Positions 28,815-56,688 of a stretch of 64,000 bases of DNA are shown piece after piece. Each line of letters opens with the position of its first letter. Within the stretch, counting starts at the first letter, position 1. The stretch spans positions 1 to 64,000 of the forward strand of contig JAEEOQ010000111.1 of assembly GCA_016284355.1 (NCBI GenBank), read 5' to 3'. The notes under the pieces are model-generated. The model ran no database searches, was not told where the DNA came from, and saw only the letters and a program-made list of their open reading frames with translations. The stretch comes from Lachnospiraceae bacterium. GTDB lineage: Bacteria > Bacillota > Clostridia > Lachnospirales > Lachnospiraceae. The position numbers and the translations under genes are program-made.

Positions 28815-28840
28815 AAGGAAAAAGCCCGCTAGCTGCGGGC
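28815..28840 (-). terminator. Terminator of the organosulfur operon
   Basis: The stem GCCCGC / GCGGGC with loop AGCTA is followed by TTTTTCCTT on the minus strand. It includes the stop codon of the last gene, so coding ends inside the hairpin. Confidence 0.85.
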
Positions 28841-30004
28841 CTTTAGTGCTAATTCAAGTCTTTTTAGTGCTTCTTTTAAGTATTCTCTGCTGCAAGCCAC
28901 ATTTATACGCTGGAAGCTTCCTGCATCGCCGCCGAATATACTTCCTTCATCAAGCCAGAGCTTTGCCTTGTCTTTTATAAAGTCATCAAGCTCTTTTCCG
29001 GACAAACCGGTTTCCTTAAAGTCGATCCAGACAAGGTATGTGCCCTCAGTCGGAACTACGTATAACTCCGGTATGTTTTTCTTTACGTATTCATTTAAGT
29101 AATCTATATTTTCTCTTATGTACTTTTTAGCAGAGCTAAGCCAGTTTTCGCCCCTGCTGTAAGCACTTTTACATGCAACTAAACCAAAGGCATTCGGCTC
29201 GTCATACCCGGTTATATATATTGCTCTTTCAAATGCCGCTTTCTTTTTTGCATCAGGAATGAATATATTTGAGATCTGAAGCCCCGCAAGATTAAAAGTT
29301 TTACTTGGTGCAGTGCATATAACCGTATTTTTAAGAAGGTCTTCAGGGAGTCTTGCTGCGGAGTAAAACTCGTGTCCTTCCCATGCAAAATCGCAGTGTA
29401 TCTCATCTGCTGCCAGGATAACGCCGTATTTAGCGCATAGCGTGGCAACTTTTGTAACTTCCTCTTTTGTCCATATTTTACCAACAGGGTTATGAGGCGT
29501 GCAAAAGATCATCATTTTCGTTTCTTTACTTGCAAGCTTTCTTTCAAGGTCTTCAAAGTCGATACTGTATTTTCCGCCTTCATATTTAAGCCTGTTTTCA
29601 ACCACAACTCTGTCATTGTCTTTTATTACATTAAAAAAAGGATAATAAACAGGCGGCTGTATAAGAACGCTATCTCCCGCTTTTGTAAATGCTCTTACTG
29701 CTGCCGAAAGACCAAATACCACTCCCGGTGTAAGTACAAACCAGTCTTCCTTTGGCCTGTAACCGTGATGCTTTTCAAACCAGGAGGCTACAACGTGCTT
29801 ATATTCCTCATCAGGAACAGTGTATCCAAATATCCCGTGAGCCGCCCTTTTTTTAAGATCTTCTATGATCTCATCTGCCGAAAGAAAATCCATATCGGCT
29901 ACCCAAAGGGAAAGTTCATCTTCGCTGTGTCCTCTCTTTTTTGCAAGGTCAAATTTTATAGCTCCCGTGCCTTTTCTGTCTATTATCTTGTCAAAATCGT
30001 ACAT
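28829..30004 (-). CDS. PatB/MalY-type PLP C-S beta-lyase
   Basis: The 391-aa fold-type I enzyme belongs to the MalY/PatB group: SLWVADMDF near the N-terminus, the GIFGYTVPDEEY segment, CTPHNPVGKIWT, the ADEIHCDF Asp/Tyr region, and TAPSKTFNLAGLQ with the PLP lysine. Such enzymes cleave the C-S bond of cystathionine or S-substituted cysteines to a thiol, pyruvate and ammonia. It ends the operon of sulfur-compound genes, 18 bases after the transsulfuration enzyme, which argues for C-S cleavage rather than transamination. Confidence 0.9.
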   Translation of the reverse strand: MYDFDKIIDRKGTGAIKFDLAKKRGHSEDELSLWVADMDFLSADEIIEDLKKRAAHGIFGYTVPDEEYKHVVASWFEKHHGYRPKEDWFVLTPGVVFGLSAAVRAFTKAGDSVLIQPPVYYPFFNVIKDNDRVVVENRLKYEGGKYSIDFEDLERKLASKETKMMIFCTPHNPVGKIWTKEEVTKVATLCAKYGVILAADEIHCDFAWEGHEFYSAARLPEDLLKNTVICTAPSKTFNLAGLQISNIFIPDAKKKAAFERAIYITGYDEPNAFGLVACKSAYSRGENWLSSAKKYIRENIDYLNEYVKKNIPELYVVPTEGTYLVWIDFKETGLSGKELDDFIKDKAKLWLDEGSIFGGDAGSFQRINVACSREYLKEALKRLELALKARS

Positions 30005-30022: not shown

Positions 30023-31195
30023 TCAAACTGTATTTGCTGCCTGCTTGATATCATTTATAAGGTCTAAAGAACTCTCAAGCCCCACGGAAAATCTAAGAAG
30101 TCTGTCATTTATCCCAAGCTTTTCACGCACTTCTTCTGGTACGTCAGGATGGGTCTGAACGAGGGGATAAGTAACAAGTGTTTCTGTTCCCCCAAGACTT
30201 TCCGCAAACGTGATCACTTTAACGCCCTTTAATATTGAAAGAGCCCTTTCTTTACTGTCTACCTCGATAGATATCATGGCTCCCGAGCCTCTTGCCTGTT
30301 TTAAGTTTACCGCATATCCGGGGTGTGTTTCAAGTCCCGGATAATAGATTTTTTTAACAAAATCCGCGCTCTCAAACCATTTAACAAGAGCTTTTGCATT
30401 TTCCTGTTCCCTTTCAAGCCTTACTGAAAGAGTCTTTATGCCTCGAAGCACAAGCCAGGAATCAAAAGGTGCCAGACCGTTCCCTATAGTCTTTGTAAGA
30501 AGTCTTATCCTATCTGCCGTTTCTTTGTCTGCAAGGCAGACAAATCCTGCTATGGTATCATTGTGTCCCGCTAAGAACTTGGAGCCGCTGTGTACTACAA
30601 TATCGGCTCCAAGAGCTATCGGGTTTTGAAAGTAGGGTGATAGGAATGTATTATCAACTATAAGAAATGCATCAATTCCATGGGCAATACGTGCGCACTC
30701 CGCTATATCCGTTATGTTCATCATGGGGTTGCCGGGTGTTTCGATATATATTGCTCTTGTGTTTTTCTTTACCGCGCTTTTAATGTTTGATATGTCACTC
30801 TTTACGCAGGTTACTTCCACTCCGTTCTTTTTTGCAATAAGCTTTATAAGCCTTACGGTTCCGCCGTACAGGTCATCTCCGCATATAACGTGATCTCCCG
30901 GTTTAAACAGTTCAAACACTGTATTTATCGCTGCCATACCGGAAGCAAAAGCAAGGCAATCTTTAGCCCCTTCAAGAGCCGCTACCGTTTTTTCAAGCAT
31001 TGCTCTTGTAGGGTTTGATTCTCTTGTATAGTCAAAACCGCTTCCGTTATGCCCCGGCTCTATATGGCTAAATGACGCCGTCTGGTAGATCGGCATGCTG
31101 ATAGGTCTGATTCCTTCGGTACCAAATGCTCCCGCTCCGTGAACGCACTTTGTTTCTATATCATTAATAAGACAGCAACAGTCTGCATCTGTCAT
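30023..31195 (-). CDS. Transsulfuration PLP enzyme (cystathionine gamma-synthase/lyase family)
   Basis: The 390-aa protein matches the Cys/Met metabolism PLP family: TKCVHG, YQTASFSH, Y-T-R pattern in FDYTRESNPTR, ASGMAAI, the SPxx-type IVDNTFLSPYFQNP, and SGSKFLAGHND with the PLP lysine. The specificity (cystathionine gamma-synthase, beta/gamma-lyase, O-acylhomoserine sulfhydrylase) cannot be set by eye. Unusually, the N-terminus MTDADCCCLIND carries three consecutive Cys codons before the normal ETKxxHG start region; no other in-frame start is near. Its ATG directly follows the M20 stop. Confidence 0.92.
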   Translation of the reverse strand: MTDADCCCLINDIETKCVHGAGAFGTEGIRPISMPIYQTASFSHIEPGHNGSGFDYTRESNPTRAMLEKTVAALEGAKDCLAFASGMAAINTVFELFKPGDHVICGDDLYGGTVRLIKLIAKKNGVEVTCVKSDISNIKSAVKKNTRAIYIETPGNPMMNITDIAECARIAHGIDAFLIVDNTFLSPYFQNPIALGADIVVHSGSKFLAGHNDTIAGFVCLADKETADRIRLLTKTIGNGLAPFDSWLVLRGIKTLSVRLEREQENAKALVKWFESADFVKKIYYPGLETHPGYAVNLKQARGSGAMISIEVDSKERALSILKGVKVITFAESLGGTETLVTYPLVQTHPDVPEEVREKLGINDRLLRFSVGLESSLDLINDIKQAANTV

Positions 31196-32533
31196 CTATT
31201 TTCCCCCTTCCGGTATATCTGCTTCTTCAACACTGTTAAATTTATCCATAAATGCCACATATTCATCTTTTGACTTAAATCTTGGCTTATAATCCGCCTT
31301 AAGACCTTTTGCAAGCTTTGCTCCGTCTTTAAGGAGTCTGTAGGCAGAGATTGCAAATATCTTTGCAGTAAGCACGTACGCCTCATCCTCGTCAATGATG
31401 TCAAAATCGCTTTGATGTGTGCCTCCTGTCATGCCGCCTGTGTGAAATGTATATACAGGAAGTAAATGCTGCACATCACCGACATCTGTGGATCCGCCGC
31501 TGTGAAATCCGGGGCCGCGCAAGGTAAATGGCTTATCTGTTATCTCTTTTACTCCCTCTACAAGGTCTGCAGGAAATTCCTGAGCTATGGCAGGAAGATA
31601 ACCCGGCATAGTCTCTATGCGGTATCCTGCTCCAAGTGCAAGAGCCCCTGCTTTAAAGGATCTGTCGGTCTTTTCTGCCGCATCCGCAAATGCTTCAAGG
31701 GTGCCGCCTCTTACGAGAGTCTCTATAACTGCCTCTTCAGGGACCACATTTACAAGGTCTCCGCCCTTAGTAAGGATAGGATGCACTCTTACGCTGTCCT
31801 CATCTCTAAAGGTCTCTCTGTTAAGTGCAAGGGCCTGAAGGCCAAGGCTTGCTGCAGAAAGGGCGTTTATGCCTGCTTCAGGTCTTGCCGCCGCATGCGC
31901 TGCCCGCCCCTTTATCTTAATTACCTTTGATACAAAACCATTGTTGCTGCCGGAGCCAAGCTCAATCCCTTTAGCAATGTGGTGAGCAAGGGCACTGTCC
32001 ACATCATCAAACGCTCCGATGCGGATAAGTTCGCACTTTCCGCCGCCGTACTGTATGCGTCCTTCCGCTTTAAGGCCATTTTTAAATTCAACCTCACCGT
32101 ATTCTTCGGCAGGTACCGCAAAAAATATGACCTGACCGTCAAGGGCTACCTTAACCTGAGGGTCTGTAAGAGCAAATGCGGCTCCCACTACGCCTGCAAG
32201 CTGAGCATGGTGCCCGCAGCAGTGCGCCCCTTCTGTTTCAGGGTTTGCATGAGCATGAGAAGGAATACGAAGAGCATCAAGCTCGCCAATGAGAGCAAGA
32301 GAAAAATTGTCCTTTTTAGCCTCGTTTATATAGGACTTAACGCCTGTTATGGCAAGGCCGCCTTCGGTCCTTTCGGTTATGTTTTGTACCTTTTCCACAA
32401 ACTTGCCTGCGGTGCGATATTCCTTATAACCAAGCTCCGCATGATCGTATATATCTCTTGCAAAAGCTATGATCTCATCTTTCCTTGATTCGATTATCTC
32501 TATGATCTTTTGCTCTGTTTTATCCATTATCAA
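31196..32533 (-). CDS. M20-family amidohydrolase (AbgB/M20D type)
   Basis: The 445-aa zinc hydrolase has the GELDALR motif (about 83-89), the HCCGHHAQ metal-binding segment (~108-115), PAEEYGE with the catalytic Glu and metal Glu, and GRAAHAAARPE of the dimerisation/active lid. M20D members hydrolyse N-acyl or N-carbamoyl amino acids and dipeptides. Next to an ATC-hydrolase-like gene and C-S lyases, deacylation or decarbamoylation of a cysteine derivative is a reasonable role, by analogy to the L-ATC route where N-carbamoyl-cysteine is cleaved; this is inferred. Confidence 0.88.
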   Translation of the reverse strand: MIMDKTEQKIIEIIESRKDEIIAFARDIYDHAELGYKEYRTAGKFVEKVQNITERTEGGLAITGVKSYINEAKKDNFSLALIGELDALRIPSHAHANPETEGAHCCGHHAQLAGVVGAAFALTDPQVKVALDGQVIFFAVPAEEYGEVEFKNGLKAEGRIQYGGGKCELIRIGAFDDVDSALAHHIAKGIELGSGSNNGFVSKVIKIKGRAAHAAARPEAGINALSAASLGLQALALNRETFRDEDSVRVHPILTKGGDLVNVVPEEAVIETLVRGGTLEAFADAAEKTDRSFKAGALALGAGYRIETMPGYLPAIAQEFPADLVEGVKEITDKPFTLRGPGFHSGGSTDVGDVQHLLPVYTFHTGGMTGGTHQSDFDIIDEDEAYVLTAKIFAISAYRLLKDGAKLAKGLKADYKPRFKSKDEYVAFMDKFNSVEEADIPEGGK

Positions 32534-32548
32534 TTCTCCCCGTATTAT

Positions 32549-33421
32549 TTATTTTGTATCTCTGCTGTAGTACATATATTTAAGAGGGACTCTTCCTGAT
32601 TTAATGGAACCTGCAGCCGCGTATCCTACCGCAAGATGCATTGCAACCTCAAATTCTTCAGGAAGACCGTAAGCCTCTTTAAACTCCTTTGCATGTCCGG
32701 GGCTGTCAGAGAGCCATACGCTTGTAAGCCCAAGAGCATGGGCCATAAGTCCCATGTGATCTCCTGCTGCCGCGCAGTCAAAGCCTCTGTTATGAGGTAC
32801 TCTTTCAGGAAGATCCTGCTTTACTATCCTTGAAGGTCTCTTATCGTAGGCAATAACGATGATCACCGCATTTTCTGTAGATACGTCGCTCCAGATAAGC
32901 TTCTTTTCTTCCTCGCTTCGAAGAACTATAAACCTTACCTCATCAAGATTGCAGCCTATTGGCGCCGCTCTTCCCGCATCGCAGATTGCATCTATTATCT
33001 CATCAGACACGTACTTATCGCTCCAGCCGGATCTTCCTGATCTTCTGCCCCAAAGGAGCTTGTTTACCACTTTTAGCTCTTCATCTGTAAAGGGTTCCGG
33101 CTGCTCACCAACCTCAGGTATTTCAGGCTTAACACCGTTTCTTATCTGCTCTGCATATTCAAGATATCTTTTTACCCAGAGGATATCATCATCTTCTTCA
33201 GAGTATCCTCTTGCCTGCCATTCTTCAAAAAGAAGCTTTGCATCAATACCGAAGTTTTCGATGGCTTTTCCTCTCCAGTTAAGGATAGTTGGGTAAATAG
33301 GAACCTCTATACCGTGATGTGTTCTTTCGTGAAGCGCTCCGCGAAGAGTGACCTCATCAAATTTTTTAAGATCTTCCCTTGTATAAAACTCGCCGCCAAT
33401 CCTGGCTCTTTCTTCTGACAT
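32549..33421 (-). CDS. Nitroreductase-family flavoprotein with N-terminal extension
   Basis: The 290-aa protein has a nitroreductase core from about residue 122: RRSGRSGWSDKYVSDEI (FMN phosphate-binding RRSxR), GRAAPIGCN, and C-terminal MGLMAHALGLTSVWLS. About 120 extra N-terminal residues (TREDLKKFDEVTLRGALHER; ILNWRGKAIENFGID) are not part of a usual 170-200-aa nitroreductase. It should bind FMN and use NAD(P)H. In this operon it may reduce or activate an S-heterocycle or disulfide; the substrate is unknown. Confidence 0.87.
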   Translation of the reverse strand: MSEERARIGGEFYTREDLKKFDEVTLRGALHERTHHGIEVPIYPTILNWRGKAIENFGIDAKLLFEEWQARGYSEEDDDILWVKRYLEYAEQIRNGVKPEIPEVGEQPEPFTDEELKVVNKLLWGRRSGRSGWSDKYVSDEIIDAICDAGRAAPIGCNLDEVRFIVLRSEEEKKLIWSDVSTENAVIIVIAYDKRPSRIVKQDLPERVPHNRGFDCAAAGDHMGLMAHALGLTSVWLSDSPGHAKEFKEAYGLPEEFEVAMHLAVGYAAAGSIKSGRVPLKYMYYSRDTK

Positions 33422-33451: not shown

Positions 33452-34153
33452 TTATAGTTCGGGGCTGTTTATATTAAAATTTACCTTCTCGTATTTTAAA
33501 AGTTTTTCTTTGGCTTCTTTACCGTAGTCTTTTTCTATATCGTCTAAGACTTTTTTGGCTACGGTCTCACCCTCTATGCCAAAAATCCCTATGCTGATCT
33601 CCCTGTAAGACCAGTAAGAGTGTGCGCAGTGATAAGTAAAACTCTTTAGCCCGTCCTCTTTTTTAAGAGGTCTGCCGCCTTCAGTAAGGCCTGAGTTTTC
33701 CACCCTCTGGATACAATAATCATGATCGTGAAGTGTCTGAGTCGTACTGTACTTTATCTCAGGACTAAACCCTCTTGCTATGGAAGGGTCAAGATTGCTG
33801 CAATAAGCCACTCCTGCCTCCGGAAGGTTCATTTCTTTAAACTGCGCTGCCCAGGGGCATCTTGTTACGTGTATCTCGTAATCAGGTGAAATGCTTATGC
33901 TTTCCGACTGGTTAGACTGCCCTAAATCTTTTATTTCTTCCGTATTTACCCACTCGCCGTACCTGCGGTAAGTTTCGTATGTAAGCGGCTCCCCGTCTGC
34001 TATGGCACGAAGCGCCATTCTCCTTCCGCGCTGCTCTGCGTAATACCTTGTGGCAAATATAAAAGCCTCGATTCCCCTGCTCCCAAACTCACTTTTAAGG
34101 TAAACGTAGTATTTTGCAGCTATGTAGGCATGAACTTTTTCGTTAAATCCCAT
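33452..34153 (-). CDS. L-2-amino-thiazoline-4-carboxylate hydrolase-family protein
   Basis: The 233-aa protein resembles the ATC-hydrolase family (PF14196): TRCPWAAQFKEMN (around residues 96-108), a CSNLDPSIARGFSPEI region, and HDHDYCIQRV, where the spaced Cys/Asp/His residues are the conserved set. Characterised members open the thiazoline ring to N-carbamoyl-L-cysteine; many relatives are uncharacterised. Its location between an SsuABC-type importer and an M20 hydrolase mirrors the AtcB/AtcC order of logic. The family call is from recognition of the motif pattern, not a search. Confidence 0.75.
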   Translation of the reverse strand: MGFNEKVHAYIAAKYYVYLKSEFGSRGIEAFIFATRYYAEQRGRRMALRAIADGEPLTYETYRRYGEWVNTEEIKDLGQSNQSESISISPDYEIHVTRCPWAAQFKEMNLPEAGVAYCSNLDPSIARGFSPEIKYSTTQTLHDHDYCIQRVENSGLTEGGRPLKKEDGLKSFTYHCAHSYWSYREISIGIFGIEGETVAKKVLDDIEKDYGKEAKEKLLKYEKVNFNINSPEL

Positions 34154-34177: not shown

Positions 34178-34960
34178 TTAAATGATATATTCTTCGTCAG
34201 AAGCTTCTTTGCCTCTGCTGATATCTGCAATAATATCCGCCGCATATCTTGAAAGGGCCGCATCGGTCCTGCTTCTTGGAAATCCCACATTTATCCTGTA
34301 TTCGGATAAAATGCGACCCGGTCTTGGAGTAAGTACTATTACTCTGTCTGCAAGATATACCGCTTCGTTAATGTCATGTGTTACAAAAAAGAAGGTCTTC
34401 TTTTCCTTTTGTCTTATGTTAATGAGCTCCTCCTGAAGCGTGCATCTTGTAAGATGGTCAACTGCAGAAAAGGGTTCATCCATAAGTATTACCTTTGGCT
34501 CTGCTATAAGGGTTCTGGCGATCCCCGCGCGCTGTCTCATACCGCCTGACAGCTGCGCAGGATATTTGTTTTCAAATCCCTTAAGCCCCATAAGATCAAG
34601 ATAATAATCAAGTCTCTTCTCTTTCTCTTCTTTTGTTACTTTGGTGTTTTCAAGTCCGAATAAGATGTTTTTCCTAACGCTTCGCCAAGGGAAGAGGGCT
34701 GCATTTTGAAAAACAACCCCTATTTCCCTGCTTGGCCCTGTTACCTTTTTGTCTCCGATGTAAACAGTGCCGCTGCTTTCCTTTAAAAGGCCTGCCACGA
34801 TCTCAAGAAGAGTACTTTTTCCGCAGCCTGAAGGACCAACTATGCAGACAAATTCGCCTTCTTCAATATCAAGATTAACGTCAGAGAGGGCTTTTACCTC
34901 CCCTGCCTCATCCGGATCATCGTAAATTTTATCTATACTTTCTATCTTTATAGCCGGCAT
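34178..34960 (-). CDS. SsuB/TauB-type ABC ATPase
   Basis: The 260-aa ATPase has Walker A GPSGCGKSTL (about 42-51), Q-loop VVFQNAALFPWRSV, signature QLSGGMRQR, Walker B VILMDEPFSAVD and H-loop FFVTHDINEA. The FPWRSV and SGGMRQR forms mark the nitrate/sulfonate/taurine importer group. It completes the importer with the lipoprotein (34979) and permease (36142) genes. Context suggests an organosulfur substrate. Confidence 0.92.
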   Translation of the reverse strand: MPAIKIESIDKIYDDPDEAGEVKALSDVNLDIEEGEFVCIVGPSGCGKSTLLEIVAGLLKESSGTVYIGDKKVTGPSREIGVVFQNAALFPWRSVRKNILFGLENTKVTKEEKEKRLDYYLDLMGLKGFENKYPAQLSGGMRQRAGIARTLIAEPKVILMDEPFSAVDHLTRCTLQEELINIRQKEKKTFFFVTHDINEAVYLADRVIVLTPRPGRILSEYRINVGFPRSRTDAALSRYAADIIADISRGKEASDEEYII

Positions 34961-34978: not shown

Positions 34979-36085
34979 TTATTTGCTTTCAGGATCTTTA
35001 AGTCCAAGTTCTTCTGCTGCCTTAAGTGCGAACTCATTTGTATACGTGCCTTCCGGAGTAACGTTTTCTTCAATCCATCCGTACTGTTTTAAGTATTCAA
35101 ATGTCTTCTCAAGTCTGTCTTCAGGAATGACAGGATAATCAAGCCATACGTCGATCTCTGAAAGAACTGCCTCACGAAGTACGTCTTTGTCTGTGTTAAG
35201 GTACTCACTTCCCCACTCGATAAACTCGTCAAAATACTCATTTTTAACCTGCTCATGTACTTTGTAGTATGCAGTAATAAATCTCTGAAGGTCTTCAGGC
35301 CTGTTCTTTATCACGTCATCACTTGCCATAAGAGTTCCGGTGTAATAGTCAGGAATGAAATCCCAGGCTCTTCCAAGAACATTTCCAACGCCTTCTACTT
35401 TTGCAAGCTCTGCATACGGGTTATGGATAATAGTTGCATCAACTTCGCCTGATGTAAGTGTTGCGTAGGCTTTCTGATATGAACCGTTTGCAATAAGCTC
35501 AACCTCATCTTCTTTAATACCGTTTGCTTCAAGCATCTTAAGTACTGAAAGTCTCATTCCGCCTGATGCACCCGATGTACCGATCTTTTTCCCGCGAAGG
35601 TCCTCAAAACTCTTTATATCATTATTTGCTATAAGCCAGTAGCATCCTGAATATCTCCACATATTTCCTACAAGTTTTGCAGGAACGCCGTTATTGATAC
35701 CTGCGATAAATGCGCTTGGATCACCATCAGTGATATCTATCTCACCTCTTGTTATAAGAGAGAGTTTACCCTGTGAACCATCTGCATTCTGAACGTTGTC
35801 AAATTCAATACCAAGTTCCTTGTATAGACCTTTTTCAATAGCAAAGTTGTTTACCGCGCCTGTCATACCTGTTGCAAAGCTTGAATTAAATCTGATAACG
35901 GGAAGTTCCCCATCTGCCTTAGAGCCTGAAGCATTTTCGCTTACTGCAACTGTTTTTGTCTGCTCAGTACTCTTTGCACTTTCGTTTTTATCTTCTTTTT
36001 TTGCACTGCCGCAAGCTGCAAGAGCTCCTATGGTTAATGCGGCGATAAGTCCAAGTACTGTTATCTTGTTAAATATTTTCTTCAT
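34979..36085 (-). CDS. SsuA/NMT1-type substrate-binding lipoprotein
   Basis: The 368-aa protein starts at ATG 36085 (AAAGGAAT upstream) with a signal peptide and lipobox ALAAC. The mature part has the family 9/NMT1 pattern: PVIRFNSSFATG, FAIEKGLYKELGIEF, ITDGDPSAFIAG, RGKKIGTSGASGG and the hinge GEVDATIIHNPYAEL. It delivers substrate to the SsuC/SsuB-like proteins. A sulfonate, thiazoline or other S-compound is likely from the operon; nitrogen compounds such as pyrimidine precursors are alternatives for this broad family. Confidence 0.88.
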   Translation of the reverse strand: MKKIFNKITVLGLIAALTIGALAACGSAKKEDKNESAKSTEQTKTVAVSENASGSKADGELPVIRFNSSFATGMTGAVNNFAIEKGLYKELGIEFDNVQNADGSQGKLSLITRGEIDITDGDPSAFIAGINNGVPAKLVGNMWRYSGCYWLIANNDIKSFEDLRGKKIGTSGASGGMRLSVLKMLEANGIKEDEVELIANGSYQKAYATLTSGEVDATIIHNPYAELAKVEGVGNVLGRAWDFIPDYYTGTLMASDDVIKNRPEDLQRFITAYYKVHEQVKNEYFDEFIEWGSEYLNTDKDVLREAVLSEIDVWLDYPVIPEDRLEKTFEYLKQYGWIEENVTPEGTYTNEFALKAAEELGLKDPESK

Positions 36086-36141
36086 TTTATTATTCCTTTC
36101 GATTTTGAGATTATTGTCTTTTTTATCCGGCATTTATCGGT

Positions 36142-36915
36142 TTATTTTTTTATCCACCTGTGAGTGAAGGTATATTCCGTAAGAGCTACAAGTTTTACAA
36201 GTAATACGGATATAACTGTTACTATCACTATCACAAGGAAAATTCGTGGTGTATTTAAAAGCTGCTGTGATTCTGCAAGCAGGAAGCCAAGTCCTGCCTT
36301 TGCAGACTGCATCTCCGCAAAAACCACTGTAGTCATTGCTGTTGCAGCCGCCATACGAAAGCCGTTAAACATTGAAGGCAACGCCGCCGGCACCAGCACT
36401 TTAAAAACTGTTTCAATCTTGTTTAGCTCAAAAACCCTTGCCACCTTTAAATACTCGTTAGGGCACTGCTTTGTTCCTGTTACGGTATTATAAAGAATCT
36501 GAAATACCGATGATAAAAATATCAGGAACACCTTTGATTTAAATCCGATTCCAAACCACAGGATAAGTAGCGGCAGGATGGCTGTTTTTGGCACCGCCAT
36601 GATAGCGGAACAAAAAACGTTCATGTATTTTTCAAGTGGCTTAAACAGTGTCCATAAAAGTCCAACCGTAACGCCCACCGCTCCTCCTATAACATAGCCA
36701 AGCAGAACTTCCTTTAGCGTAATGCCAAGATGTTCAAAAAGAATCCCTTCTTTTACTGTCTTTATAAGGTCTTTAAAGATGCCGCTTGGCGAAGCAAGAA
36801 AGACTTTACTGATCTTCCCGCTTGTAACGGAATATTCCATAAAGGCAAGAAGTGCGATCACGCTTAAGATCTGCAATATGGTCACTATGTCGACCTTTTT
36901 TTCTTTTACTTTCAT
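36142..36915 (-). CDS. SsuC/TauC-type ABC permease
   Basis: The 257-aa inner-membrane protein has about six helices and the family loop EYLKVARVFELNKIETVFKV (ATPase contact), followed by LPSMFNGFRMAAATAM. ATG 36915 has GAAGGGTG upstream and is favoured over an upstream GTG. It is the first long gene after the leader ORF and terminator at 36941-37117, so its expression depends on read-through. Confidence 0.9.
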   Translation of the reverse strand: MKVKEKKVDIVTILQILSVIALLAFMEYSVTSGKISKVFLASPSGIFKDLIKTVKEGILFEHLGITLKEVLLGYVIGGAVGVTVGLLWTLFKPLEKYMNVFCSAIMAVPKTAILPLLILWFGIGFKSKVFLIFLSSVFQILYNTVTGTKQCPNEYLKVARVFELNKIETVFKVLVPAALPSMFNGFRMAAATAMTTVVFAEMQSAKAGLGFLLAESQQLLNTPRIFLVIVIVTVISVLLVKLVALTEYTFTHRWIKK

Positions 36916-36940
36916 TTTTATCACCCTTCTTTTAAAGCTT

Positions 36941-36982
36941 AAAAAATAACACCCGGCTTTTGTTTTTCAACTATACCGGGTG
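36941..36982 (-). terminator. Leader terminator (attenuator) before the organosulfur operon
   Basis: On the minus strand CACCCGG / CCGGGTG with a 19-base loop, followed by TTATTTTTT. It lies between the stop of the Cys-rich leader ORF (36986) and the permease start (36915). Leader segment 37060-37050 (ATACCACCGGG) is complementary to its 5' arm, a possible antiterminator. Confidence 0.8.
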
Positions 36983-36985
36983 CTC

Positions 36986-37117
36986 TTAAAGCTTCATCTC
37001 GTTTGCATGCGCGTGCAAATAGCGCATATAGCTTGAAATGTTTTTCATTCCCGGTGGTATATGCTTCATACAACAACACATGCACATGTTTGAATTTGTC
37101 ATAAGTTCCCTTATCAT
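36986..37117 (-). CDS. 43-aa Cys-rich leader peptide, probable cysteine-sensing attenuator ORF
   Basis: ATG 37117-37115 has GGAAGGAG 10 bases upstream and the frame runs 43 codons to TAA at 36988. Residues 10-17 read NMCMCCCM: codon 12 is Cys and codons 14-16 are three Cys in a row (37078-37070), with Met between. The rest (KHIPPGMKNISSYMRYLHA) is Met-rich. It sits between a good promoter and an intrinsic terminator, in front of a sulfur-assimilation-type operon. This is the classical layout of ribosome-mediated attenuation, here for cysteine (perhaps also Met). The longer-than-usual tail means a functional small protein cannot be excluded. Confidence 0.8.
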   Translation of the reverse strand: MIRELMTNSNMCMCCCMKHIPPGMKNISSYMRYLHAHANEMKL

Positions 37118-37172
37118 GTTTTCATTTCTCCTTCCTCTTGCAAAACCAAATTGCAAATGAATCATGTGTCAT

Positions 37173-37201
37173 ATATTATACCTATCAACCTACTATGTCA
37201 A
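37173..37201 (-). promoter_or_regulatory. Promoter of the Cys-leader/organosulfur operon
   Basis: TTGACA (37201-37196), 17 bases, TAATAT (37178-37173); an overlapping TATAAT gives 15-base spacing. The spacer has TAGTAGG...GATAGGTAT, and TAGGTAT also occurs upstream of the cystine-like importer at 7393-7422. Transcription should begin near 37166, about 50 bases before the leader ATG. Confidence 0.75.
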
Positions 37202-37351: not shown

Positions 37352-38932
37352 ATGGTTAAGACAAAATACGGCTTTGTGGAAGGCGTGCCTTCTGACAGAG
37401 AAGATGTTACGGTTTTTAAGGGGATCCCTATCGGTGCCACTACTGAAGGTGCGGGGAGGTTTTGCGCTCCAAAAGAGCCTGCGCCCTGGGATGGCGTAAG
37501 GTTATGTGATAAGTGGCCTGACAGGTTTTTACAGGATATAACTTCTAAAGTTCCCGGTACCTTTTGGGGTGATGAGTTTTATTACGATGATGATTACGAA
37601 CCGGGAAACAGCGAAAACGGCCTTGCCGTAAATGTATTCGCGCCAAAAAAAGCTGCAAATGAAGATGGACTTCCCGTTTTATGCTGGATCCACGGCGGCG
37701 GTTTTACGAGCGGATACGCTTCAGAGATTGAGTTTAATGCAAGTAACCTTGCAGTGAAAGGCATTATAGTAGTTCTTATACAATACCGCCTTTCAGCACT
37801 TGGCTGGCTTGTAACTACAGAGCTTTGCGAAGAAAACGGTGGACACGCCGGTAATTATGCGGTTCTTGACATGGTACACGGCTTAAAGTGGATAAACGAG
37901 AATATAAAAGAGTTTGGCGGCGATCCTAAGAAAGTCACCATCGCAGGCCAGTCTGCAGGAGCATTTTCGGTTACTATGCTTCTTCGCACTCCGCTTGCAA
38001 AGGGACTTTTTAGAAATGCAATCGTACAGAGCGGATTTAACGGATTTTTAAACGGTGCCGATTTTGGTGCAAAGTTTTCTACCCTTAAAGCCGCCGCGGA
38101 AGCCGGTGATAAGGCGATCAAAACCGTATTTGGTGAAAATGCTTCTATAGAAGATGTCAGAAAGGTTTCCACTTCTGATCTCCTGCTGCCAAGAGAAGGC
38201 GCAGGCACAGGTTTTGGCGGTGCTCCTATGACAAGACTTGCGGAGCTTACATTTCTAACCGGAAATGCCACCGTAGATAATTATGTATTTACAGAAGAAT
38301 CAGTTGACCTTACGCGCCCGGGTGCCCTTGATGGCATCAATATCATCATTGGCGGTACAAGCGATGAATACACCTCACTTACAGGAGATTTCATCGATAA
38401 AATGGGAATCACAAAGGATACTGCAGCAGGCATCTTAGAAAAGCAATACAAAAAAGGCTGCGCAGAGCTTTATGATATAAGCGATGATAAAAAAGCTCAG
38501 GCTGCCCATATGCGCGCAGGAAGCGATGCATCCTTCCAGAAATACCTTCTTTCTGCGGGTGCCACTGAAAATAACAAGGATCACAAAACATTTGCCTATT
38601 ATTTTACTCAGGTTCCAAGCGGCAGAAACAGCGAATTTCGCGGAGCCTACCACTCTTCAGATCTTTGGTATATGTTTGATTCCATAAGAGAAGGAGCTGC
38701 TCATAGAAACTGGACAAAGGAAGATAGAGAGACCGCAAAGATCATGAGCACCTACTGGGCAAACTTTGTAAAAACCGGCGATCCAAACGGCGAAGGTCTT
38801 ACTAACTGGGAAGAATGTAAGGAAGAAAACGGCTACAGATTCCTTCAGATAGGAAAAGGAAAGTCAGAAATGAAAGACCACACAGATTTCCCTGAAAGAG
38901 ATGCCTTTTTCCGCAGCCTTTATCAGAAATAA
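37352..38932 (+). CDS. Type-B carboxylesterase
   Basis: The 526-aa serine hydrolase has the oxyanion-hole CWIHGGGFTSG segment (about 110-120), the nucleophile elbow TIAGQSAGAFS (~197-207), and a C-terminal AYHSSDLWYMF with the catalytic His. No signal peptide is present. Gut relatives hydrolyse small acyl or feruloyl-type esters; the real substrate is unknown. Ribosome binding site TTGGAGG. It is transcribed away from the sulfur operon and ends just before a large REP-like cluster. Confidence 0.9.
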   Translation: MVKTKYGFVEGVPSDREDVTVFKGIPIGATTEGAGRFCAPKEPAPWDGVRLCDKWPDRFLQDITSKVPGTFWGDEFYYDDDYEPGNSENGLAVNVFAPKKAANEDGLPVLCWIHGGGFTSGYASEIEFNASNLAVKGIIVVLIQYRLSALGWLVTTELCEENGGHAGNYAVLDMVHGLKWINENIKEFGGDPKKVTIAGQSAGAFSVTMLLRTPLAKGLFRNAIVQSGFNGFLNGADFGAKFSTLKAAAEAGDKAIKTVFGENASIEDVRKVSTSDLLLPREGAGTGFGGAPMTRLAELTFLTGNATVDNYVFTEESVDLTRPGALDGINIIIGGTSDEYTSLTGDFIDKMGITKDTAAGILEKQYKKGCAELYDISDDKKAQAAHMRAGSDASFQKYLLSAGATENNKDHKTFAYYFTQVPSGRNSEFRGAYHSSDLWYMFDSIREGAAHRNWTKEDRETAKIMSTYWANFVKTGDPNGEGLTNWEECKEENGYRFLQIGKGKSEMKDHTDFPERDAFFRSLYQK

Positions 38933-56454: not shown

Positions 56455-56688
56455 AATAAAGTCTCTGCCATAACAGCAGAGACGTATATTTACCGTGGTA
56501 CCACTCTGATTCAGATGCATAAACATCTGCACTCATGCGTTCTGTAACGGGAACACCCGCAAGGGACTACTAAAGTTCACCCCTTAAGCTCCCGGACGAG
56601 TTCAAAACCTCCCGCTTACCTGCTTACACCTGCCGCAGGCTCTCTGAAAAGGGGCCGATCTTTACTGCTTCCGTTCGTCGCGATTAAC
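56455..56688 (-). ncRNA. T-box leader of leuS
   Basis: The minus-strand leader has the T-box sequence GAGTGGTACCACGG (within 56507-56491), a terminator hairpin GTCTCTGC / GCAGAGAC with T-run (56483-56455), an AGUA-type and AGAGAG segment in stem I, and a likely specifier CUC (Leu) at 56600-56598 within GAACUCGUCC. Uncharged tRNA-Leu would stabilise the antiterminator. The specifier is assigned by position, not by a full fold. Confidence 0.88.

Follow-up and report, generated by a model that had tools for sequence, protein, structure and literature searches.

The minus strand of the window, the 64,000-nucleotide stretch of Lachnospiraceae DNA under study, carries an operon whose gene families (Table 1) confirm the organosulfur type assigned by an earlier first-pass annotation; the gene set appears fit for the import of organosulfur compounds and the release of cysteine or sulfide. 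Ahead of its first gene lies a leader region in which the promoter (TTGACA-N17-TAATAT), the 43-codon ORF with a good ribosome binding site and a run of Cys codons, and the intrinsic terminator noticed by that annotation were all recovered. The layout is that of an attenuator: a promoter, a Shine–Dalgarno (SD) sequence and a short leader ORF precede the operon, the cluster of Cys codons matches the amino acid that the operon would supply, and an intrinsic terminator stands between the leader ORF and the first gene.

Table 1. Features of the leader region and of the operon behind it, in window coordinates
Feature	Coordinates	Strand	Remarks
TAGTAGG half-site in promoter spacer	37189..37195	minus	possible CymR/Rrf2-type repressor site, by inference
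Sigma-70-type promoter TTGACA-N17-TAATAT	37173..37201	minus	10/12 consensus bases
Shine–Dalgarno sequence GGAAGGAG	37128..37135	minus	10 nt 5′ of leader ATG
Cys-rich leader ORF, 43 codons	36986..37117	minus	ATG at 37117, UAA at 36988-36986
Cys control codons 12, 14, 15, 16 (TGC ATG TGT TGT TGT)	37070..37084	minus	
Candidate antiterminator 5′ arm ACCGGG	37050..37055	minus	shuffle test suggestive only
Terminator 5′ arm	36975..36984	minus	36980-36975 common to terminator and antiterminator
Terminator 3′ arm and U tract	36941..36957	minus	3′ arm 36957-36948, U tract 36947-36941
ssuC-like ABC permease, first gene of operon	36142..36915	minus	alternative GTG start at 36924
SsuA-like substrate-binding protein	34979..36133	minus	
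SsuB-like ABC ATPase	34178..34960	minus	
L-2-amino-thiazoline-4-carboxylate (ATC) hydrolase family protein	33452..34153	minus	PF14196, E 1.4e-15; would release cysteine
Nitroreductase-family protein	32549..33421	minus	
M20-family amidohydrolase	31196..32533	minus	
Cystathionine gamma-synthase/lyase-family PLP enzyme	30023..31195	minus	
PatB-family C-S lyase	28829..30004	minus	TIGR04350, above cut-off

The leader peptide reads MIRELMTNSNMCMCCCMKHIPPGMKNISSYMRYLHAHANEMKL; codon 13, between Cys codons 12 and 14, specifies Met, and the Cys codons lie about 28 codons ahead of the stop. The terminator hairpin (36984-36941) has 10 pairs and a folding energy of -18.4 kcal/mol (z -4.6), equalled by none of 200 shuffles; its loop, which exceeds 8, kept a simple terminator scan from calling it. 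It cannot belong to the divergent neighbour gene (37352-38932, plus strand). Since it sits between the operon's sole good promoter and the first gene, transcripts from this promoter must cross it, the more so as ssuC starts about 26 nt past its end and there is no room for a second promoter in between.

ORFs of this kind are rare in the window and in the genome from which it comes. Among 649 SD-preceded small-ORF starts scanned in the 64 kb, at least four Cys within eight residues were found only in the leader ORF and in one 12-aa ORF with a TTG start. The motif TGY-N3-TGYTGYTGY occurs at 37 sites in the 2.7-Mb own genome, and among the 30 of these inspected as loci the window's is the sole SD-led small ORF in a leader outside genes. 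A close rival in the own genome (MKCTCCCCST, locus L105) runs antisense inside an esterase gene and was dismissed as chance.

SsuC orthologs are found in only eight of 397 same-family genomes, the own genome counted, and further loci came from an alignment-based scan of GTDB genomes; the window organism is the only member of its genus among the genomes compared. Viral contigs yielded distant permeases only. Because gene order varies between genomes (elsewhere the first gene is often M20 or ATC-hydrolase-like), the leader was sought ahead of whichever gene comes first. An SD-led poly-Cys mini-ORF precedes 11 of the 34 orthologous operons, which differ in gene order and first gene (the window, L016, L017, L022, L027, L029, L032, L033, L035, L038 and L040); about two thirds of the operons have no Cys leader, and at L024 and L046 the contig ends before the leader region. 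An intrinsic terminator follows the leader in nine of the 11 (the exceptions being L022 and L033), and TTGACA-led promoters similar to the window's lie ahead of most relatives' leaders. In an automated count with the window excluded (at least three Cys in eight residues, plus SD), poly-Cys ORFs stand before 8 of 28 operons, as against 3 of the 179 remaining genes at those loci (P = 5e-6).

What is retained among these leaders is the cluster of control codons. Peptide sequence, length and Cys spacing vary (for example MKKMMMSMCCMCMQNAPCRMMFCHDGNR in L017, MKKLMCCMCCCCCRSCMNMRMSPGVGD in L016 and MKKTYSQNVFDMCMCMCCCMMMRHMVNLSCRKRA in L040), and no leader has a match in NCBIfam, Pfam or Rfam. Between L022 and L033, 15 codon changes are nonsynonymous and two synonymous, with all four shared Cys codons kept; between L035 and L038 the whole C-terminus differs and the Cys cluster stays, with four of five Cys codons kept. 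Retention of control codons in relatives while the peptide diverges is again a mark of an attenuator. The first-pass annotation had proposed to search related operons for small ORFs with Cys runs followed by terminators, and had held that a lack of conservation of Cys codons or terminator would speak against its idea; the search found both, in 11 and nine operons respectively. On the SsuC tree the window groups with L017, L027 and L029, all four carrying the leader, and leader presence across the tree needs six changes, three of them forced by well supported branches. This patchy distribution in Lachnospiraceae suggests repeated gain or loss.

Two loci in this set stand apart. L022 and L033 are Treponema/Spirochaetaceae MAGs that hold the same operon, with leader Cys codons adjoining the stop; since their SsuC groups with Lachnospiraceae, the sequences would suggest transfer between phyla or misbinning. 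In L014 (11976-12045; the same operon as in L030) a tRNA-Cys gene with anticodon GCA occupies the place where a poly-Cys leader would be, in the operon's orientation, about 70 nt 5′ of the first gene and downstream of a TTGACA-type promoter, and is possibly co-transcribed with the operon.

The association with cysteine genes also emerges from a search blind to gene function. The 397 same-family genomes were searched for the pattern SD, ATG and Cys-Cys-x-Cys-Cys, and the matches listed were checked for reading frame and for overlap with longer ORFs; among them, seven are short in-frame ORFs free of a longer ORF (G118, G289, G264, G174, G086, G173 and G141), and five of these seven precede cysteine genes. 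The ORF of G141 seems to overlap a dehydrogenase gene at its start, and that of G173 is ambiguous. At L166 the pattern leader stands before a GST-like gene accompanied by a cystine-type ABC transporter, at L169 before a methyltransferase-mccB-mccA operon, at L170 before cysK, again with such a transporter, and at L175, where no intrinsic terminator is recognisable, before cysK; the gene names at these extra loci come from reading of translations rather than from family searches. The organosulfur operon was recovered again at L016. When the same pattern was applied to 255 genomes across the class, no cysteine gene outside Lachnospiraceae proved to have a convincing Cys leader; the in-frame matches were secreted or Cys-rich proteins, segments of genes in another frame, or ambiguous (L246). 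Only one of 28 readable cysK loci, L197, has a strong candidate, and the Cys leader is therefore not general for cysK. The L197 candidate, from another genus, is a 39-codon ORF with Cys clusters (MKAVNGFWMNTMCCSNVCTCMDRCCCRICVRENQKAGLR) whose hairpin is weaker and overlaps the ORF end. The Cys-rich ORFs at L167 (3963-4265, minus strand) and L168 (MCCCRCCCRCCC... and MCCRRCCHCCRC...) resemble genuine small proteins more than leaders.

RNA folding with a ribosome footprint set at each leader codon was computed for 12 leaders. A sharp switch appears in L017 and L032, where the terminator probability is 0.01-0.02 when the ribosome covers the Cys run and 0.99 and 0.93 once it is further on; during the modelled stall the segment just 3′ of the Cys run pairs with the terminator 5′ arm, and none of 60 shuffles reproduces the switch. 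The same logic holds for L170 in transcripts ending before the terminator 3′ arm (0 of 60 shuffles, on one of two measures). Eight of the 12 leaders have no computed switch, and the sum over all 12, which exceeds every shuffle on the full-transcript measure, is driven by L017 and L032.

For the window, folding of the two states, which the first-pass annotation had called for, gives a less sharp picture. That annotation had taken 37060-37050 as complementary to the terminator 5′ arm; the pairing exists, in the narrower form of 6 bp between ACCGGG (37055-37050) and CCCGGU (36980-36975), and the ACCGGG arm lies immediately 3′ of the footprint of a ribosome stalled at codons 14-16. Antiterminator probability peaks at 0.78 with the ribosome at codons 13-14 and falls to 0.44 by codon 19, a Cys dependence of a short antiterminator that 7% of shuffles match. 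At equilibrium the terminator keeps a probability of 0.91-0.97 at nearly all ribosome positions, so that the idea of a stalled ribosome abolishing it at equilibrium was rejected; the signal is confined to the truncated-transcript (co-transcriptional) measure. A ribosome placed on the stop codon lowers the terminator probability to 0.22, because the stop codon abuts the terminator stem, and in these models the stop-codon geometry is not textbook. The Cys-sensing function is thus better supported than the detailed hairpin scheme.

Read from its sequence and that of its relatives, the window leader is probably a cysteine-specific, ribosome-mediated transcription attenuator. With ample Cys-tRNA(Cys), the ribosome would clear the leader, the terminator hairpin would form and transcription would end before ssuC. 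With charged tRNA(Cys) scarce, the ribosome would stall at codons 12-16, an interpretation already offered at first pass and now supported by the Cys clusters and terminators of relatives and by the other cysteine operons. The stalled ribosome would melt an upstream helix involving the Cys codons and so free ACCGGG, which could then pair with the terminator 5′ arm and let RNA polymerase enter the operon, whose products would import organosulfur compounds and free cysteine from them. At the promoter, a CymR-like repressor would probably add a second layer of control: CCTACTA/TAGTAGG half-sites occur at or near the promoter in many of the orthologous operons and at some of the extra Cys-leader loci, three Rrf2-family matches in the own genome exceed the cut-off, and these observations suggest that a shared Rrf2/CymR-type repressor may serve these operons.

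Other explanations must be weighed against attenuation by hairpin exchange. Stalling at the Cys codons could act through translation or Rho, as in mycobacteria, where Cys uORFs have no terminators (PMC1262725), with the hairpin secondary. Such a route finds some footing at L022 and L033, whose Cys codons adjoin the stop and are followed by no clear terminator, and at L175, which has none, as well as in the prediction that a ribosome at the window stop codon would block the hairpin; it is nevertheless unlikely, for the window leader and most of those in relatives have a strong intrinsic terminator behind them, and modelled ribosome position switches the terminator of L017 and L032. Less probable again is that the ORF product is a small Cys-rich protein with a function of its own, binding metal or acting in redox, and that the ORF heads the operon by happenstance. 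The failure of relatives to conserve peptide sequence, length and Cys spacing argues against it, as do the lack of a protein-family match, the terminator that separates ORF from operon in nine of 11 cases and the fate of the C-terminus in the close pair L035/L038, even if Cys-rich small proteins do exist in Lachnospiraceae (L167 and L168) and CxCCC or CxxCxCxCC spacing could bind metal or sense redox. As to a chance meeting of a four-Cys short ORF with an unrelated terminator, about one in seven shuffled windows would be expected to hold a lone TGY-N3-TGYTGYTGY match, but the independent appearance of such leaders before orthologous operons and before other cysteine operons, with the enrichment given above, and the singularity of the ORF among the inspected own-genome sites make coincidence very improbable.

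If the leader is the cysteine attenuator favoured here, a major gut family joins the bacteria with cysteine-sensing leader-peptide attenuation; the family belongs to Bacillota, in which control of these genes had been attributed to T-boxes or CymR, and the leader is a likely switch for the scavenging of host or dietary organosulfur. A wider reading, put forward tentatively as possible rather than probable, is that Lachnospiraceae hold a patchy, fast-changing regulon (organosulfur operon, cysK, mccB-mccA and cystine transport) of non-homologous Cys attenuators that replace a Cys T-box or partner a CymR-type repressor, the window leader being a two-sided gate in which a ribosome at the stop codon would also permit read-through. 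The loci offer test cases for gain and loss of such attenuators. Protein-family and Rfam searches miss such leaders, as conservation extends neither to the peptide nor, so far as observed, to the RNA fold; control codons combined with a terminator serve as a search key that finds them.

Leader-peptide attenuators for His, Trp and Leu are known in enterobacteria. The window leader shares with them control codons and a terminator before the first gene, together with candidate alternative hairpins; unlike them, it would sense Cys, and its stop codon abuts the terminator rather than an antiterminator arm. His leaders also occur in bacilli, before hisZ/hisS* (PMC2965389). Cys T-boxes control cysK-cysE, the ubiG-mccBA operon and cystine transport genes in Clostridium perfringens (PMC2940859); the proposed attenuator has in common with them the sensing of tRNA(Cys) charging, premature termination and cysK, mccBA and cystine transport as targets. 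T-box RNA, however, binds tRNA directly, and scans of the window leader and of 23 relatives' loci turned up no T-box, nor was any riboswitch found in these leaders. A T-box leader does lie elsewhere in the window (56475-56687, minus strand, 142 bits), before an aminoacyl-tRNA synthetase-like gene, and the own genome therefore uses T-boxes, though not at the organosulfur operon.

The closest parallels are Cys uORFs of other phyla. Polycysteine uORFs of mycobacteria, which are reportedly leaderless (to go by the title of a 2020 paper from Canestrari and colleagues, cited in PMC13236596), resemble the window leader as short Cys-run ORFs ahead of cysteine genes. They differ in having Cys codons near the stop and no intrinsic terminator, whereas the window leader is SD-led, carries its Cys codons far from the stop and is followed by a terminator, in another phylum and before other operons. 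The first-pass annotation was right that poly-Cys leader ORFs are described there: for mycobacterial cys operons, cysteine-responsive attenuation by such uORFs has been proposed or shown (PMC1262725; PMC4633059). Its statement that no Cys leader of this kind is described in Lachnospiraceae holds for the literature searched, from which most subscription journals fell outside, but the combination of Cys uORF and terminator had already been proposed in Rhodobacterales (PMC8632094). Cys uORF attenuators are thus already described in mycobacteria and Rhodobacterales, the Lachnospiraceae case being unreported in the papers searched. The Rhodobacterales motif, uORFC-8-2, lies before cysS and combines two tandem Cys codons with an intrinsic terminator, for which ribosome-mediated attenuation was proposed (PMC8632094); a Cys-codon uORF followed by an intrinsic terminator is what the two systems share. 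The uORFC-8-2 motif is a conserved two-stem RNA found only before cysS in alphaproteobacteria, and the window leader, with ssuC as the first gene behind it, is set apart from it by location; the Lachnospiraceae leaders have variable peptides and spacing and precede cysteine acquisition genes.
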